This document shows positions 3,979-64,000 of a stretch of DNA of 64,000 nucleotides, in pieces; positions within the stretch are counted from its first letter, which is position 1; every line of letters begins with the position of its first letter. The DNA comes from Alkalibacillus almallahensis. GTDB lineage: Bacteria > Bacillota > Bacilli > Bacillales > Alkalibacillaceae. The notes beneath the pieces are model-generated. The model was not told the origin of the DNA, did no database searches, and saw only the letters and a program-made list of their open reading frames with translations. The translations under genes were made by a program, and so were the position numbers. The DNA lies in contig NZ_JAASRU010000007.1 in NCBI RefSeq assembly GCF_011761495.1, positions 62,001-126,000 of the forward strand. Direction: 5' to 3'.

Positions 3979-4143
3979 TCCACATCTCTCCTATGAACAA
4001 ATTGCATTATTTCACTACAAAACTCTATGCTTGATCATGCTATGATGAAAATACAAACAGCTCCTTAGTATTTCTTTAAGTGTTATAAAACTAGGATAAC
4101 AAATAAGGAGTTTGCGTGCTTTTTTGTCTCATCAAACCGCTAA

Positions 4144-4288
4144 GTTGGTGTCAGGTGAGGAGCGTAGGTGGTGACGCCTGCGGGAACAGCACGCGTCTCG
4201 AGACCCCGCAGGCTATGTTTTTCGGCCGAGGAGGCTCGAGCCGTGCCCGCGGCAAGCATCCACCGAAAGCGGATCGCCTGACGCCAAC
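4144..4288 (+). repeat. Dispersed GC-rich structured repeat, copy A
   Basis: A 145-bp element bounded by GTTGGTGTCAGG and CCTGACGCCAAC, which pair over 12 bp with one G-U. Inside are the sub-hairpins shared with the other copies: GCCTGCGGG/CCCCGCAGGC, a GTCTCGAGAC palindrome, GGCTCGAGCC and GGTGG/CCACC. The end sequence differs from the other four copies but is still self-complementary. Open frames through it are by-products of its GC content, not genes. It lies between the aminopeptidase promoter region and an integrase remnant. Confidence 0.85.
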
Positions 4289-4341
4289 GGCCGACAATAA
4301 ACCCTCACGCTGAATTGTGTATCTACCCCAACAAATATATT

Positions 4342-4584
4342 AGAGCCAATATATTAGAGCCTTTATTAGAAGCTGATGAAAAAGAAAAATACGTATCCGA
4401 AAGACTTGGTCACAAATCCGTGAAAGTCACATCAGATACGTATCTACACATCACTCAAAAAATTGAAGATGATGCTCTTGATTTATACTCAAATTACCTA
4501 ATCAGTGATTTTGGGGGCATCTTGGGGGCATACAGCCCAAAACATGAAAACAATGCCCCGAAAACACTGTCATATCAACCTTAA
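4342..4584 (+). pseudogene. C-terminal remnant of a phage-type tyrosine integrase
   Basis: Only the end of a tyrosine recombinase remains: ERLGHKSVKVTSDTYLHI is the classic block with the His (LGH) and catalytic Tyr (DTYLH), followed by IEDDALDLYSNYL. The N-terminal DNA-binding and most of the catalytic domain are missing, so it cannot be active. The reading frame runs into the final bases of sufB on the opposite strand. Phage and island integrases that use the 3' end of sufB as attachment site are known to me from staphylococci (the Sa1int group), so this may be what is left of an element integrated here. Confidence 0.75.
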
Positions 4585-9884: not shown

Positions 9885-9989
9885 CTCTCAGATATAGAAT
9901 AACCATATAAACACTCACTCTATCATTATAATAAAAAACACATACTTTTTAAACGTATAGCTATTGTGATAATTATCTTCTCAATTTCC

Positions 9990-10135
9990 GTTGTTGATAT
10001 TGTGATCCGCTATCGGTGGACGCTTTCCGCGGGCACGACTCGAGCCTCCTCGGCCAAAAGGCGTGGCCTGCGGGGTCTCGAGGCTCGTGCTATTCCCGCA
10101 GGAGTCGCCACCTTCGCTTCTCACAATTCAACAAC
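9990..10135 (-). repeat. Dispersed GC-rich structured repeat, copy B
   Basis: A 146-bp copy read on the minus strand, with ends GTTGTTGAATTGTGAG and the complementary TCACAATATCAACAAC. It carries the same ordered inner blocks as the other copies (CCTGCGGGAA, CTCGAGACCCCGCAGG, GGCCGAGGAGGCTCGAG, GCCCGCGGAAAGCGTCCACCG). It lies downstream of the small gene and its terminator and upstream of the suf promoter. Confidence 0.85.
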
Positions 10136-10182
10136 TAATTGCTTAATCAACTTAAAACTTGCGCTAATATTTAACTAAAAAC

Positions 10183-13250: not shown

Positions 13251-13421
13251 AAAAAACCTTTCTACTCCAATAAGAGAACAGAAAGGTTTGACGAATTAAC
13301 CAATTGTTCTCTTATCTTTCAAAGCAAAATATAGCTTTGAAGGAATTAGCACCTATCATGCCTCATGCATGACGGTTGCTGGGTTTCGCAGGGCCTGTCC
13401 CTCCACCTCTCTTGATAAGAG
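13251..13421 (-). ncRNA. S-box (SAM-I) riboswitch, metN-proximal, with its terminator
   Basis: The minus strand has the S-box core: CTCTTATCAAGAGAGGTGGA, then GGGACAGGCCCTGCGAAACC, the CAGCAACC block, and a 3' P1 strand GATAAGAG. Downstream a terminator hairpin AAACCTTTCT/AGAAAGGTTT is followed by TTTTTT. The 3' strand of P1 (ATAAGAGAAC) can pair perfectly with GTTCTCTTAT in the terminator loop region, giving the antiterminator. This is the classic transcription-off switch when SAM is bound. Aptamer spans roughly 13309-13421, terminator 13251-13289. Confidence 0.96.
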
Positions 13422-13471
13422 ATTTTAATGCATTATTCTTTTTATACGTTAATCTGTTAATGTGTTAATCA

Positions 13472-13622
13472 CAAAAAAACTTTCTTGTAAGAACAAGAAA
13501 GAGGATTACTCAATCTTATCTTACAATGCTTTCACATTGCAGGAATTAGCACCAATCATGTACGCTACATGACGGTTGCCGGGCTTCACAGGGCCTATCC
13601 CTCCGCCTCTCTGGATAAGAAG
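13472..13622 (-). ncRNA. S-box (SAM-I) riboswitch, promoter-proximal, with its terminator
   Basis: A second complete S-box on the minus strand: CTTCTTATCCAGAGAGGCGG, GGGATAGGCCCTGTGAAGCC, CGGCAACC, GGTGCTAATTCC and a closing GATAAG strand, followed by a terminator CTTTCTTGT/ACAAGAAAG with a T-run. TTGTAAGA next to P1 can pair with TCTTACAA in the terminator, a shorter antiterminator than in the downstream copy. Aptamer roughly 13514-13622. Two full switches in series mean two independent chances to stop transcription. Confidence 0.95.
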
Positions 13623-14190: not shown

Positions 14191-14245
14191 AACGTTTAAG
14201 CTTTTATAGTTTTATCTTAATTTGATGTTGAGTTATAATCTCTTA

Positions 14246-14493
14246 GTTGTTGAATTGTGAGTAGCGTTGGTGTCGACATTAGTCTTCTGGGTCGTCGATG
14301 TTATAGTGCGTGTCTCGAGATCCCGCTGTGATACAGTGATACAGCGAAAAAGGCGCATGATACAGCGCAATTGGCGCTCTATACAGCGAAATCTCTCCAT
14401 TATACAGCGAAAACATGCTTACATACAGCGAAATCATCGCTTGATACAGCGAAACTAAACTATACACTGATAGCGGATCACAATTTCAACAAC
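14246..14493 (+). repeat. Dispersed structured repeat, copy C, with central part replaced
   Basis: The ends GTTGTTGAATTGTGAG and GCGGATCACAATTTCAAC mark a fifth copy of the dispersed element, followed by the same GGACTTTATCAAAG flank seen at copies D and E. Between the ends most of the usual core is missing: a TGTCGACATTAG stretch (also in copy D) and GTGTCTCGAGATCCCGC remain, and then a 21-bp-period array fills the space. Confidence 0.8.
14333..14470 (+). repeat. 21-bp-period array of ATACAGCGAAA
   Basis: Six ACAGCG cores start at 14341, 14362, 14383, 14404, 14425 and 14446, exactly 21 bp apart, each usually preceded by AT and followed by AAA, with variable sequence between. Degenerate units (ATACAGTG, ATACACTG) lie at both edges. 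Because 21 is a multiple of three, all frames show a false seven-residue peptide repeat; no ribosome site supports translation. Confidence 0.85.
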
Positions 14494-14530
14494 GGACTTT
14501 ATCAAAGTTTATTGAATAACAATCACAGTT

Positions 14531-22875: not shown

Positions 22876-23433
22876 TTATTTAATTAGGATTTCAATTTCA
22901 TCTTCGTGTTCTTTTAATAACGCATCAATTGTTTGTTGTATATCGTGATTCATTTCTTCAGCTTCTTCTTCTGTTTCAGGCTGCTTTTCACCAAAACGTT
23001 CTTTAAAAAATTCATTTTGATAGGCACTTCTTTTAGCACTTCTCTCAATATATTCCTTATGATACTCTTTTGGCTTCATATCAAACCTCTCAGCCTGAGC
23101 CTTTGCAAATTCTCTAATCTCATTTGCTTCATCAGTATCAACATTTTCAGGAGGATACTGACCAAAGAATTCAATTGAGCCTTCGACTTCATCTGATACA
23201 TCGATTCCCATTTCCTTAGCTTCTTGAATAACAACAGTTTCCCTAACCATTGATTCAACAACTTCAGGTAAATCTTCATCTTCCAACTCAAAGAAAAAGC
23301 GAATGTCTCCAACTGTTATTTCTTCTCCCCTTACAATAGCGGCTACTTCGTCATTGTCATATGTGGCTGAGTCTGAACATCCCACTATAAAACTTAAGCT
23401 TATCAAAATAATACTGCTAACTAACTTGTTCAT
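22876..23433 (-). CDS. SurA N-terminal-like lipoprotein without a PPIase domain
   Basis: 185 residues. The signal peptide ends in SLSFIVGC, a lipobox with Cys at residue 19, so it should be anchored on the outer side of the membrane. VAAIVRGEEITVGDIRFFFE resembles the N-terminal chaperone segment of SurA/PrsA foldases, and the rest is an acidic, helical region. The parvulin-type isomerase domain is absent. It may be a degenerate or stand-alone chaperone-like lipoprotein. It is a single gene next to a degraded insertion sequence. Function unknown. Confidence 0.7.
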   Translation of the reverse strand: MNKLVSSIILISLSFIVGCSDSATYDNDEVAAIVRGEEITVGDIRFFFELEDEDLPEVVESMVRETVVIQEAKEMGIDVSDEVEGSIEFFGQYPPENVDTDEANEIREFAKAQAERFDMKPKEYHKEYIERSAKRSAYQNEFFKERFGEKQPETEEEAEEMNHDIQQTIDALLKEHEDEIEILIK

Positions 23434-28953: not shown

Positions 28954-28980
28954 AAAACCCGCTGATTTTCAGCGGGTTTT
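28954..28980. terminator. Bidirectional terminator
   Basis: AAAACCCGCTGA and TCAGCGGGTTTT with a 3-nt loop. It points leftward for the ABC-F gene, although repeat copy D now separates it from that gene by 340 bases, which suggests the repeat was inserted between gene and terminator. Confidence 0.9.
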
Positions 28981-29034
28981 ATAACCTGGGTTCTACTAAA
29001 GATTAGAATTGAGTTTCAAATGATTTAACACAAA

Positions 29035-29311
29035 GTTGTTGAATTGTGAGAAGCGATGGTGGCGACTCCTGGTCGACTAAAAGCGGTCACGTCCTGTGAC
29101 CAACGTCGACATTAGGCCGTCCAGGCCGTCACGGGAATAGCATGAGTCTCGAGACCCCCAGAGGGCCACAGGATGTGGGTCACTTCAGCGTTCGGACAGG
29201 ACGTCCGGTACTTAGCCGAAGTTCATTTAGTTGCCGAGGAGGCTCGAGCCATGCCCGCGGAAAGCGTCCACCGATAGCGGATCACAATATCAACAACGAA
29301 CTTCATCAAAG
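29035..29311 (+). repeat. Dispersed structured repeat, copy D, with two internal insertions
   Basis: Ends GTTGTTGAATTGTGAG and GCGGATCACAATATCAACAAC plus the GAACTTCATCAAAG flank. The core is interrupted twice: after GGCGACTCCTG by about 60 bp, and after CTCGAGACCCCCAG by about 70 bp. The insertions are chains of small hairpins, for example GGTCACGTCCTGTGACC, CCACAGGATGTGG and CGGACAGGACGTCCG, which share a CAGGA/TCCTG loop. The region is 300 bases without a gene; open frames in it are not credible. Confidence 0.85.
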
Positions 29312-29318
29312 GCTAAGT

Positions 29319-30929
29319 CTAAGATAAAGTTGGTGTTTCGATTTTCTTCACGTCATCTAGATATTCTTCATAACTCATTTCACGGTCAATGACACCTTCA
29401 TCTGTAATTTCAATAATGCGGTTGGCGATTGTTTGAATAAACTGGTGGTCATGTGATGTGAACATAATTGAGCCTTTAAAATTAATTAGGCCTTCGTTTA
29501 ATGATTGAATCGATTCTAAATCTAAGTGGTTCGTCGGATTATCTAATAATAATACGTTCGCTTCACTTAACATCATCCGCGAAAGCATAGCACGAACTTT
29601 TTCACCACCCGAAAGCACATTCGCTTTCTTAAATACTTCATCACCAGAGAATAACATTCGACCTAAGAAGCTACGTAAGAATTTTTCGCTTTCGTCTTGA
29701 GGTGAGTAATCACGTAACCACTCGATTAACGTTTTATTATTCCCTTCGAAAAACGCAGAATTGTCTTTCGGGAAGTACGATTGAGAAGTGGTCACACCCC
29801 ACTTGAATGAACCCTCATCTGGCTCTAATTCACCCATTAAAATTTGAATTAATGTTGTTTTAGCTAAATCGTCACCGAGTAAAACAACTTTGTCATCTTT
29901 ATTCATACGGAATGTAACGTTATTTAATACCTTTTCACCATTAACCGTTTTAGACAAGTTATTCACTTCTAAAAGATCATTACCAATTTCGCGATCTGGT
30001 TTAAACGCAATGTAAGGGTAGCGCCTGGATGATGGTTTAATATCATCAAGCGTGATTTGATCGAGCAACTTCTTACGAGATGTTGCCTGACGTGACTTAG
30101 ACGCGTTGGCACTAAATCGAGCAATAAACTCTTTCAGCTCTTTAACTTTTTCTTCTTTTTTCTTATTCTCTTCTTGCGCCATTTTTTGTGCTAATTGGCT
30201 TGATTCATACCAGAAATCATAGTTACCGACGTATAATGTGATTTTCTCAAAATCTAAATCCGCAATATGCGTACAAACATTATTTAAGAAGTTACGGTCG
30301 TGGGAAACGACAATAACGGTATTCTCAAAGTTAATTAAAAACTCTTCTAACCAACGAATCGCTTGAATATCAAGTCCGTTTGTTGGCTCATCAAGTAAAA
30401 GAACATCTGGATTACCGAATAATGCTTGCGCTAATAAGACTTTTACTTTTTCACTTTCTGGTAAGTCTTTCATCTGTTTATGGTAATATTCTTCTTTAAC
30501 ACCTAAACCAGATAATAAGGATGCGGCGTCACCTTCAGCTTCCCAACCATTCAATTCTGCAAATTCACCTTCAAGTTCTGCTGCACGCATACCGTCTTCT
30601 TCAGTGAATTCACCTTTTGCATAAATGGCGTTTTTTTCTTGCATGACATTATATAATTGTTCATGTCCCATCATGACAACTTGTAATACATTCTCTTCTT
30701 CGTAAGCAAAGTGATCCTGTTTAAGCATGGCAATACGTTCATCTTTGCCAATCGAAACTTGACCTTCTTGTTGTTCAATTTCTCCGGACAATATTTTAAG
30801 AAATGTTGATTTACCAGCGCCATTCGCACCGATTAATCCGTAACAATTTCCTTTAGTAAATTTTATAGAAACATCTTCAAACAGTTTACGATCAGAAAAT
30901 CGTAACCCGACATTTGTAACTTGTAACAT
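29319..30929 (-). CDS. ykpA: ABC-F family ATPase (YkpA/YbiT type)
   Basis: 536 residues, two ABC domains joined by a linker and no membrane part. This ABC-F class acts on ribosomes, not in transport. First domain: Walker A GANGAGKST, Walker B VLLLDEPTNGLD, with a degenerate signature PESEKVKVLLAQ. Second domain: GDDLAKTT as a modified Walker A, signature LSGGEKVRAML, Walker B VLLLDNPTNHLD. In the second site the catalytic Glu is Asn and the P-loop lacks the usual GxxxxGK. So the second ATP site looks impaired. It is a single gene. Confidence 0.88.
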   Translation of the reverse strand: MLQVTNVGLRFSDRKLFEDVSIKFTKGNCYGLIGANGAGKSTFLKILSGEIEQQEGQVSIGKDERIAMLKQDHFAYEEENVLQVVMMGHEQLYNVMQEKNAIYAKGEFTEEDGMRAAELEGEFAELNGWEAEGDAASLLSGLGVKEEYYHKQMKDLPESEKVKVLLAQALFGNPDVLLLDEPTNGLDIQAIRWLEEFLINFENTVIVVSHDRNFLNNVCTHIADLDFEKITLYVGNYDFWYESSQLAQKMAQEENKKKEEKVKELKEFIARFSANASKSRQATSRKKLLDQITLDDIKPSSRRYPYIAFKPDREIGNDLLEVNNLSKTVNGEKVLNNVTFRMNKDDKVVLLGDDLAKTTLIQILMGELEPDEGSFKWGVTTSQSYFPKDNSAFFEGNNKTLIEWLRDYSPQDESEKFLRSFLGRMLFSGDEVFKKANVLSGGEKVRAMLSRMMLSEANVLLLDNPTNHLDLESIQSLNEGLINFKGSIMFTSHDHQFIQTIANRIIEITDEGVIDREMSYEEYLDDVKKIETPTLS

Positions 30930-42171: not shown

Positions 42172-42194
42172 TCACTCCTTGATTTATTTTTTAG

Positions 42195-42356
42195 CTTTGT
42201 TAAAGTCCGTTGTTGAAATTGTGATCCGCTTTCGGTGGACGCTTTCCGTGGGGCACGGCTCAAGCCTCCTCGGCCCAAGTGCGTGGCCTTGCGGGGTCTT
42301 GAGACGCGTGCTGTTCCCACTGGAGTCGCCACCTTCGCTTCTCACAATTCAACAAC
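42195..42356 (-). repeat. Dispersed structured repeat, copy E, inside the glycolytic operon
   Basis: Minus-strand copy with ends GTTGTTGAATTGTGAG and TCACAATTTCAACAAC and flank GGACTTTAACAAAG. All inner blocks are present with point changes, some in pairing positions. It lies between gpmI and eno, so it would be transcribed as part of the operon mRNA. Confidence 0.85.
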
Positions 42357-42401
42357 TCAATGCTACATCATTTGAAAAACAACACTAAACATTAACAGAG
42401 T

Positions 42402-44694
<2,293 letters not shown>

Positions 44695-60533: not shown

Positions 60534-63500
60534 CAACCCTTATCTTCTGTCATCTTATTTCGGCGTAATAACCATACACCGCCAATTAATAAAAATCCAC
60601 CGAATACAACAAACTTCCAATCAAATACGCTACCAGTTTGTGGTAATGCTTCGTCATTATCATTGGACGTGTTTTGATTATTACTTCCTTCAGTATTTGA
60701 GCTTTCATCATTTGAAGAACCTTGATCTTGGTCGCCTTCTTGATCCCCAGACGAAGGTATGCTTTCTTCGTAGGTGTTGATGATATGATACTCTTCAACT
60801 TCTGTAGAATAGCCATCTACTGACTTTTCTTTTACCGTGTATTCAAAGCGTTTTCCTTCTTGGTCAAATTCAGGTAAATCTTTAAAAGTATATTCCCAAT
60901 CATCTGATGCAGTTAACGTCGCTTCTCTAAATAGCTCCCCATTCTGATAAAGCGAAACTAAAATGGAGTTTGGTCGGACAGATTCTGCATCTTGCTCCCA
61001 TGATTTAGTAACATCAATAGATGTAACACCTACACGTCGATTGGTAATATCGAACTGATCATACATAGGATGATAACCTTCTATTGCTTTTTCTTCAATA
61101 GAGTAATCATATAGTTTTCCTTCATCATTGTATTTTTCTAATTCATCAAAGGAATATTGCCAATTAGAGTCGGCAGTCACTTCTTGAGTTTTAATCTGTT
61201 CGCCATTTTGTAACAGATGAATTTTGATTGCATCAGGACGATTGTTAGCATTACCATCTAACCATGTTTTCTGCCCTTCTACTGACGTCTTCCCTACACG
61301 AGTATTTGTAATATCATACCCTTCGATATTTGTTTCATATCCTTCAACCGGTTCTTCTTCAACCGTATAATCGTGAGGAATCCCATCTTCATTGTAAGCC
61401 TCTATCTCATCAAATTGATAGGTCCACCCATTTTCACTTGTCACAGTTTGTTGATCTACTTGTTCACCATTTTTGAGTAAACTGACGGTAATACTATCTG
61501 GGCGCTCAGCTGATTGGTCATCTTTCCAAGTCTTGGTTCCAGAAACCTCTGTTGTACCAGTTCTCAGATTTGTAATATCAAAACCATCAATAGATGATTG
61601 ATAACCTTCAACTTCACTTTCTGATACTGTGTATTTGTACTCTTCACCATCAGAATTAAATTGAGGCACATCAGTAAATTCATAAACCCAGTCATCTGAT
61701 GCTTTAACAGTACCTTCCCTAAAGGATTCACCATTTTGTAATAGTTGAACTTGGATAGAATCTGGTCGACTAGATGAGTCCTGATCGAGCCATGTCTTCG
61801 TGACATCTATATTAATATCTTCTGAACGAACATTTGTGATGTCATAACTGTCCTCATCATAAATTGGTTCATAACCAGTTACAGCTTCTTCTTCAACAGT
61901 GTATTCATAAGGTTGACCATCTGAATCATAAGCATCTAAACCTTTAAATTGATATTGCCAATCCATGTCAGATGTCACAGGTTTACTTTTTATCTTCTCA
62001 CCATTTTGTAGCAAATTAACTGTAATAGTTTCTGGCCTCTTAGATGCATCACCATCAAGCCATGTTTTTGTTCCTTCAACAGATGTTGTTCCGGTTCGTG
62101 TATTCGTGATATCAAAACCATTCACATTAGAATCATATCCTTCAACATCATGTTCTTCTATTGAATATTCAATAGCTTGTCCTTCTGAATCGTAAGCTGG
62201 TAAATCTGCAACTTCTTTAGTCCAATTGTCCTCAGCAGTTATCTCAATTTCTTTATAGGAATTGCCGTTTTTCAATAAATCCACCTGAATTGCAGACGGA
62301 CGATCTTCTGAATTCGGATCTTTCCATCCTTTATTGATGACAATTGACCTTTGTTCAGATCGCGTATTTGTAATATCGAAAGTACCTTCTTCAACTTTTG
62401 ATTGATAACCTGAAACTTCTTGCTCACTTACTTCATAATTATAAGGTTTACCATTTTCATCAAATCGATCTAGATTTTCAAACTGATATTCCCAATTATT
62501 ATCAGCAGTGACTTTTATCGTTTCCTCAACTGTTCCATTTTGTAAGAGATTAATCGAAATCGACTCAGGTCGGTCTGCTTTGTCATCATCCTTCCATGAC
62601 TTAGAACCTTCAACGGAAGTTGTACCAACTCGTACATTTTCAACAGTAAACTGCTGATTTTCATCCTCATTAATACCTTTTAACTCATAGCCTTCACTAG
62701 TAGAAACTTCTTTTATTTCATAGTTATATTTCTTTCCACTTAGATCATAAGCATCGAGGCCATCAAACGTATAACTCCAGTCATCTGCGGAGGTCAGTTG
62801 AGCCTCATCGATCGAATTACCATTTTGATAAAGTTCTACTTTGATTTGATTTGGTCGATTTTGAGATCCTTCTTCATCCAACCATTCTTTATCAACTGTG
62901 ACGGATGTTTCGCTCACATTCGTTATGGTAAATCCATTTATATGATCTCCAGTGATGTTTTGCTGGTTATAACCATCGACAGCTTCTTCTTCGACATAAA
63001 ACTGATATTCTTTGCCTTGTTCATTAAATCGTTCTATACCGTTGAATGTATATTCCCAATTATCACTTTTAGTCGTTGTTACTTCTTCAATTGGTTCTTC
63101 TTTACCTTCACGGAACAAGCTAACAGAAATTTCGTTCGGACGAGAATCAGTAGATTCTTGATCATTCCACTTCTTCGAAACATTTATATCTGTAGTACCT
63201 GTTCGAGTGTTGGTGAATGTAACTATACCACCATCTTCGGATTTAGTTGATTGATAACCTTCAACAGCTTGTTCTTCTACTTCATAAGTGTACTTGGCAC
63301 CCTCATCATCATAGACTTCTAATTGATCGAAGGTCGTTTCCCAATCGTCCTCCGAAGTTAACGTTTCTGTCTTAAATGGCTCATCTCCATCATTTCGATA
63401 TAATTCAACCGTTACTTCATCCGGACGGTCATTGGTTACATCTTGTTGATCATTCCACTCTTTCTCAACGTTAATTGATGTCTGTTCAGATCGTGTATTT

Positions 63501-64000
63501 GTTAAGTCATAGCCATCTACAGTTGTTTCATAACCATCTACAGTATCTTCAGAAATCGTATAATCATAAGCTACGCCACGATCATCAAACTTAGGTAAGT
63601 TTTCAAATTGATAGGACCAATCATCACCTGATACTGTTTGTTGATCAAGTTTTTCACCATTTTGATTGAGAATAACTTCAATTTCCTCAGGTCGATCAGC
63701 TGTTTCAGGTGTATCTACCCATGTTTTGCTTCCTTCAATCGTTAAAGAACCTTCTCGAGTATTAATAAGATCGTATCCATCAATCTCTTTTTCATAACCT
63801 TCCACATCAACTTCATCAATTTGGTATTGATAACGTTCTCCTTGGTTATTATAAGCTGGTAAGTCTGTAAACTCATAATACCAATTATCACCCGCTGAGA
63901 CGGTCTTTTCTTTTAAGAAATCAGAATCATTCTTTCGTGTCAACTGTACTGTAATAGATTCAGGACGCTCTTCTGAATTGCCATCTTGCCAAGTTTTTGT
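60533..64000 (-). CDS. Cna-B repeat LPXTG surface protein (5' end outside window)
   Basis: At least 1155 residues are visible; the frame is open to the right edge, so the N-terminus with signal peptide is not seen. Twelve Cna-B-type beta-sandwich repeats of about 87-90 residues (the first cut) each carry a pattern such as KTWLDG...RP-x-x-I-x-V-x-LLQNG...DW-x-Y-x-F...YDYTVEE...VEGY...YDITNTR. Stalk domains like these can form Lys-Asn isopeptide bonds. After an Asp/Asn/Ser-rich spacer come LPQTG, a membrane helix and RRNKMTEDKG. It should be a wall-anchored, rod-like adhesin. A sortase gene overlaps the 3' end. Confidence 0.93.
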   Translation of the reverse strand, partial: TKTWQDGNSEERPESITVQLTRKNDSDFLKEKTVSAGDNWYYEFTDLPAYNNQGERYQYQIDEVDVEGYEKEIDGYDLINTREGSLTIEGSKTWVDTPETADRPEEIEVILNQNGEKLDQQTVSGDDWSYQFENLPKFDDRGVAYDYTISEDTVDGYETTVDGYDLTNTRSEQTSINVEKEWNDQQDVTNDRPDEVTVELYRNDGDEPFKTETLTSEDDWETTFDQLEVYDDEGAKYTYEVEEQAVEGYQSTKSEDGGIVTFTNTRTGTTDINVSKKWNDQESTDSRPNEISVSLFREGKEEPIEEVTTTKSDNWEYTFNGIERFNEQGKEYQFYVEEEAVDGYNQQNITGDHINGFTITNVSETSVTVDKEWLDEEGSQNRPNQIKVELYQNGNSIDEAQLTSADDWSYTFDGLDAYDLSGKKYNYEIKEVSTSEGYELKGINEDENQQFTVENVRVGTTSVEGSKSWKDDDKADRPESISINLLQNGTVEETIKVTADNNWEYQFENLDRFDENGKPYNYEVSEQEVSGYQSKVEEGTFDITNTRSEQRSIVINKGWKDPNSEDRPSAIQVDLLKNGNSYKEIEITAEDNWTKEVADLPAYDSEGQAIEYSIEEHDVEGYDSNVNGFDITNTRTGTTSVEGTKTWLDGDASKRPETITVNLLQNGEKIKSKPVTSDMDWQYQFKGLDAYDSDGQPYEYTVEEEAVTGYEPIYDEDSYDITNVRSEDINIDVTKTWLDQDSSSRPDSIQVQLLQNGESFREGTVKASDDWVYEFTDVPQFNSDGEEYKYTVSESEVEGYQSSIDGFDITNLRTGTTEVSGTKTWKDDQSAERPDSITVSLLKNGEQVDQQTVTSENGWTYQFDEIEAYNEDGIPHDYTVEEEPVEGYETNIEGYDITNTRVGKTSVEGQKTWLDGNANNRPDAIKIHLLQNGEQIKTQEVTADSNWQYSFDELEKYNDEGKLYDYSIEEKAIEGYHPMYDQFDITNRRVGVTSIDVTKSWEQDAESVRPNSILVSLYQNGELFREATLTASDDWEYTFKDLPEFDQEGKRFEYTVKEKSVDGYSTEVEEYHIINTYEESIPSSGDQEGDQDQGSSNDESSNTEGSNNQNTSNDNDEALPQTGSVFDWKFVVFGGFLLIGGVWLLRRNKMTEDKG

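Follow-up and report, generated by a model that had tools for sequence, protein, structure and literature searches.

A hairpin repeat carried by unrelated insertion sequences of Bacilli: a possible transposase-leader and antisense-RNA module

The repeat represented by copies A to E in the window (the whole 64-kb stretch of DNA analysed here) may be, with about even confidence, a transposase-leader hairpin and antisense-RNA module common to unrelated insertion sequences. The anatomy of this module is well supported: a core of ~85 nt caps dozens of distinct paired stems in Bacillaceae, Planococcaceae and Staphylococcus, each closing stem being characteristic of a genus and a carrier, with both arms matching. 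Since the stem sequence follows the carrier transposon, the contrast between copy A and copies B-E is a difference between two transposons with a common module, and it would be too simple to treat A and B as copies of one repeat.

Copy A lies where the first-pass annotation had placed it, and between its arms GTTGGTGTCAGG and CCTGACGCCAAC there are 12 bp of pairing, one of them G-U, as had been claimed. The terminal stem is longer than noted there, reaching 15 bp with a second G-U included (closing arms GTTGGTGTCAGGTGA and TCGCCTGACGCCAAC). Folding, proposed earlier as a check, gave an RNA minimum free energy of -80.6 kcal/mol (z -6.3, 0 of 200 shuffles equally good) and the shape of a long rod, the core-sense strand folding better than its complement (-80.6 vs -69.5). 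A search for intrinsic terminators at copy A returned no terminator-like match, which rules out that reading of the core. The features of copy A and its surroundings are as follows.

4144..4288, plus strand: copy A, core hairpin and A-type terminal stem with arms at 4144-4158 and 4274-4288
4035..4349, no strand assigned: probable ISL3-family fossil leader enclosing copy A, in a block 93% identical to the A copy of congener G005
4326..4347, minus strand: ISL3-type terminal inverted repeat GGCTCTAATATATTTGTTGGGG, exact, of the end type of the intact ISL3 element L110
4038..4046, plus strand: extended -10-like TGCTATGAT, reading towards copy A, consensus match only

After the terminal repeat GGCTCTAATATATTTGTTGGGG comes a further, incomplete copy; the doubled, partial inverted repeat occupies 4334-4361 (end approximate). 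The end type of GGCTCTAATATATTTGTTGGGG is that of L110, an intact ISL3 element of congener G008 from which the core is absent. In congeners, the A-type repeat sits between an ISL3 end and degraded ISL3 transposase frames, ~90-106 nt from the start of the transposase gene and on the opposite strand. Such degraded genes persist in congeners; the transposase expected for copy A, on the minus strand to its left, is gone, and no match to PF01610 or NF033550 was found in the genome of copy A. Because no ISL3 transposase is left in this genome, copy A is read from its sequence context as the fossil leader of an ISL3-family insertion sequence, and not as an insertion sequence proper. The motif TGCTATGAT is a weak candidate for the relic of an antisense promoter. 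Directly adjoining the leader fossil, positions 4363-4580 hold the remnant of a phage-type integrase C-terminus.

Copies B-E are small non-autonomous IS1595-type transposons (MITEs), whose features are given below.

9989..10136, minus strand: copy B, with decayed outer ends around core and B-type stem
14191..14530 (approximate), plus strand: copy C with flanks, B-type stem, no insert at the orthologous site of G005
14246-14260 (5' arm) and 14478-14493 (3' arm), plus strand: copy C stem, enclosing a 21-nt tandem array
28980..29320 (approximate), plus strand: copy D with flanks, B-type stem, no insert at the orthologous site of G005
29035-29049 and 29282-29297, plus strand: copy D stem, with two Bacillaceae-1 modules inside
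42193..42402, minus strand: copy E, a complete IS1595-type MITE with ends AGCTTTGTTAAAG and CATTAACAGAGTC and a flanking TATTTTTT duplication
42342-42356 and 42209-42224, minus strand: copy E stem arms

The repeat ends given by the first-pass annotation are not the ends of these elements: conserved flanks with transposon inverted repeats lie further out, which for the B type read GGCTCTGTTAAAGTTTAGTGTTGAT on one side and GGACTTTAACAGAGCC on the other. A B-type end stands 64 nt upstream of an IS1595 transposase in locus L313 and downstream of one in L312 (family called by NCBIfam NF033547 and Pfam PF12762). Target duplications of 8 bp (TATGTTTT, TAATAAGT, TTTATATT, AATTGTAA) have matching empty sites in the relatives G005 or G000, and at the orthologous sites in congener G005 copies C and D of the window are both missing. 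It is from the IS1595-adjacent ends, the 8-bp duplications and the empty sites that B-E are called IS1595-type MITEs, the mobile unit of the B type being an element with IS1595-type ends that measures ~217 bp when uninterrupted. No single IS1595 element with both B-type ends was found among the loci examined, and the core was absent from the IS1595 elements seen. B-type ends are present in 99 of 199 genomes of the order, while a reversed control pattern gave 0 among the genomes listed. ISL3 as the carrier of the B type was ruled out by the same ends adjoining IS1595 transposases, and a REP/REPIN element was dropped on finding DDE-type ends and duplications. Copies B-E thus resemble IS1595-family MITEs in their ends, 8-bp duplications and lack of a gene, but differ from them by a conserved RNA-like core that is also carried by other transposon families.

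Elements with these ends also occur without the core, as at positions 1500-1605 of L295, where only the terminal stem region lies between IS1595-type ends, and in L109 and L080, where elements of 46-50 bp consist of the ends alone. Other modules are nested within the repeat. At 14337-14454, the 21-nt tandem array around GATACAGCGAAA stands in place of the copy C core, with the outer stem still paired. At 29061-29231, copy D holds two Bacillaceae-1 RNAs (RF01690), both above threshold and one on each strand, which are nested guests of the copy D element and not the element itself. Modules with a ACGTCCTGT loop like those of copy D are found at the same insertion points in other genomes (L099, L104, L106, L126), and further cargo modules at fixed points of the rod in L085, L090, L100, L107, L182 and L186, for example TAAAGAAGACACTGCG...GGGTAAAAGCG after CCCGCGG and GATGCGCCTGCGTC...CCCTGGC at the apex.

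The stem of copy A had been described as wholly different from that of B-E, which is an overstatement, 10 of the 15 bases of the 5' arm being identical. The sequence GTTGTTGAATTGTGA attributed to B-E is exact in all four copies (14246 and 29035, plus strand; 10121 and 42342, minus strand), but their 3' arms are not its exact complement and read TCACAAT[A/T]TCAACAAC, with one base extra. The RNAalifold consensus on the MAFFT alignment was poor because the bulge was misaligned, and pairs were therefore counted in a hand-set register. In this register, which was picked from a small number of bulge and offset settings and leans slightly towards pairing, A and B-E differ by five double compensatory pairs (5, 8, 9, 10 and 11) and two half changes (pairs 6 and 13). 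The inner hairpins, also said to be shared by all copies, are common to A, B and E, but not to copies C and D of the window: the array replaces most of the core in C, and the two RF01690 modules are inserted within the interior of D.

Beyond the window, its 2.7-Mb genome has at least 40 matching copies, and five congeners have 13-43 matches per genome. With carrier families (IS1595, ISL3 and IS1182) assigned by Pfam and NCBIfam, the tabulated A stems go with ISL3 ends only and the B stems with IS1595-type ends only. A third, C-type stem, GGAATCAAAACGC, is flanked by IS1182-like ends (L261, L318), as are the C-type stems of the table that have a recognisable carrier. Further paired stems are exemplified by GGCAGAATGC/GCATTCTGCC, GACTAATTAC/GTAATTAGTC, GCCAACATAC/GTATGTTGGC and GTTGATT/AATCAAC. 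In many Bacillales stem classes an arm finds its complement in its own copy and rarely in another, a stem score of at least 10 being reached with the own arm by 59% of copies, with crossed arms by 2.8% and with shuffled arms by 0.9%. Greedy clustering yields 43 stem classes, a count that varies with the threshold and in which some stems are weak. In a scan of named genomes, the core was present in Oceanobacillus, Virgibacillus, Sporosarcina, Planococcus, Lysinibacillus and other Bacillaceae and Planococcaceae. Plasmids with the core comprise one Bacillaceae record and many from Staphylococcus. Phage and viral collections are essentially devoid of it (no match in one search, one contig in another), which rules out a phage element. 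Rfam holds no family for the core at gathering threshold, and no earlier description of the repeat was found in the literature searched, the coverage of which was incomplete.

The closest known relative of the core is the orphan Staphylococcus aureus sRNA tsr24 (RF02577), with the same core sequence, rod fold and strand. Its model matches locus L319 with 213 bits at 1756-1981 on the minus strand, overlapping position 1971, where the IS1272 transposase begins on the plus strand, and staphylococcal IS1272 leaders score 213 and 102 bits, above the gathering score of 50 bits. A query made from the tsr24 consensus core likewise finds Staphylococcus plasmids and the annotated IS1272 of phage records; in that of phiPV83 the element starts at 22891, with the core on the minus strand (22989-23064) and a plus-strand transposase starting at 23170. 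As the model overlaps the transposase start on the opposite strand, tsr24 is antisense to the point where translation of the IS1272 transposase begins, the core forming its principal fold. This placement in the leader is like that in the ISL3 relatives of copy A. The Bacillales copies differ from tsr24 in stems, carriers, flanks and scores, which stay below 50 bits: copy A reaches 15.2 bits, and the best copies in the genome of the window, of C type, 37.7 bits. Weaker tsr24 matches, sub-threshold but located on the core and on the same strand, were obtained in distant genera and, within the order, in 34 of the 150 genomes scanned; a match over the cut-off was found in 0/150.

A similar geometry is found wherever the core accompanies a transposase gene. 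In such elements the terminal inverted repeat comes first, then the core, then the gene, whose start codon is ~90-200 nt downstream of the core; in the leaders of IS1272 and of the ISL3 elements of the genus the core is antisense to the transposase. In 3 of 29 sampled IS1182 elements with intact genes it is again in the leader and antisense, never sense and never in the tail. The core was found in none of 28 sampled ISL3 elements (0/28), a result which, with 3/29 for IS1182, rules out a universal leader hairpin of these two families. Several core-bearing leaders have a second hairpin next to the core that conceals the ribosome-binding site, and ISL3 leaders, with or without the core, place this site inside a hairpin of -28 to -31 kcal/mol. 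Most core-bearing elements also match an extended -10 on the antisense strand, opposite codons close to where the transposase begins. An antisense extended -10 similar to TGNTATAAT is seen over the first transposase codons of 19 of 54 core-less elements (L322-L381), vs 1 of 57 control windows. These matches may reflect either selection for a promoter or a conserved protein or coding motif.

Considering this arrangement, the proposed leader module would consist of the ~85-nt conserved core over a terminal stem in which pairing is required and sequence is free. Read-through transcripts would fold into hairpins that hide the start site and block translation of the transposase, while an antisense RNA, initiated close to the start codon of the transposase and built around the folded core, would cover the translation start. 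The net effect would be a leader device that limits transposase expression. A stable antisense body needs pairing, for which any sequence will do, and this would account for the pattern of closing stems. Copy A would be the relic of such an ISL3 leader, and the MITEs B-E would have retained the hairpin together with their IS1595-type ends. By inference, the RNA would be made in the genus of the window and would control transposition.

Insertion sequences with leader hairpins or antisense RNAs are already familiar, examples of the antisense RNAs being RNA-OUT of IS10 and art200 of IS200. Both of these, as well as RNAs of S. aureus N315, resemble the proposal in combining an antisense RNA over the transposase translation start with a leader hairpin; the module would differ from them in that one core appears to serve unrelated transposase families. 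For S. aureus N315, antisense RNAs at the transposase 5'-UTR have been reported, with a proposed block of initiation (PMC2873960). As far as the literature was searched, one core spread Bacilli-wide over three transposase families is new, and so are the correspondence of stem and carrier and the finding that tsr24 lies over the start of the IS1272 transposase. More tentatively, and with less than even confidence, one structured RNA module might have moved across Bacilli between three or more unrelated DDE transposon families, as an exchangeable leader or antisense regulator with a conserved core, a carrier-specific stem and nested modules such as Bacillaceae-1 at fixed points. If so, transposase-control RNAs would form a family in which tsr24 is the first expressed member. 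The proposal brings together, in a testable picture, this orphan sRNA, a repeat that is widespread but unannotated in Bacillales, and leaders from several insertion sequence families, and the repeat offers a natural experiment in RNA structure evolution, with one core, dozens of closing stems and sequence-free pairing.

An unlikely alternative is that the hairpin acts as DNA in transposition, as a cruciform or single strand recognised or stabilised by the machinery, its RNA being irrelevant. Gene-less and recently mobile MITEs do keep the hairpin, copy A also folds well under DNA parameters (z -3.9), and IS1272 is reported to target stem-loops, which are replaced by the element (PMC5678879). 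Nonetheless, the coreless 46-50 bp elements with the same ends (L109, L080) indicate that the hairpin is dispensable for dispersal in some cases. The DDE transposases of the IS1595, ISL3 and IS1182 families are moreover expected to need the element ends only. Mismatches in the deduplicated stems also speak against a DNA role, G-U outnumbering A-C on one strand by 23:8 (p = 0.011), a modest excess, absent when the family is counted by itself (5:3), the count over all consensus pairs of the family alignment (70:54) being uninformative. This excess favours an RNA of the core-sense strand.

Less likely still is that core and stem form an independent hitch-hiker with its own mechanism of insertion into transposons and other hairpins. 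The association of the same core with three transposase families, the 136 copies outside the genus whose carrier was not recognised, and the nesting of other hairpin modules within the core element would all suit it. On the contrary, the unit that moves at the polymorphic sites is defined by IS1595-type ends and not by the core, and a constant leader position with antisense orientation in independent insertion sequences is unexpected of random insertion.

Compensatory change between two repeat copies can mirror a change of carrier, and covariation therefore needs judging on a tree. This was done on 84 family copies, with a tree built from the core alone and a substitution-preserving null. Most differences between A and B fall within one clade of this tree, so that the A/B contrast, taken by the first-pass annotation as a sign of selection on a folded structure, is itself insufficient; it is the wider sampling on which the structural conclusion rests. 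Across the copies, 20 branch events from one Watson-Crick pair to another occur at 8 of the 15 pairs. Covariation at the terminal stem is significant at pair 8 (E = 0.004) and pair 11 (E = 0.03; E values over 15 pairs), with several lineages contributing, while pairs 5, 9 and 10 are not significant alone (E over 15 pairs 0.5-1.1). The aligned copies thus support selection on a folded structure. An explanation without selection, in which template switching (quasi-palindrome correction) keeps the palindrome arms alike and young copies are amplified, is as improbable as the hitch-hiker: pairs 8-11 do change jointly between A and B, as one event would produce, and many copies are young and near the family consensus, but single-pair compensatory changes occur in separate lineages (GTTTG/CAAAC in L051, TATGG/CCATA in G001, TGCGA/TCGCA in L016) and the G-U excess over A-C is not predicted by template switching.

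Relative to genes, chromosomal copies in the named genomes have no preferred orientation (32 same/same vs 28 opposite/opposite), which rules out a cis mRNA element of fixed orientation. They are enriched between convergent genes (28 of 96, vs 65 of 395 background gaps), the pattern expected of tolerated insertions. Since copies point both ways, they give no indication of a host function. Elsewhere in the window, a tandem pair of SAM riboswitches lies on the minus strand at 13309-13621, and diverged direct repeats with a spacing of ~264 nt extend over 60776-63805, probably as repeated domains of one long protein.
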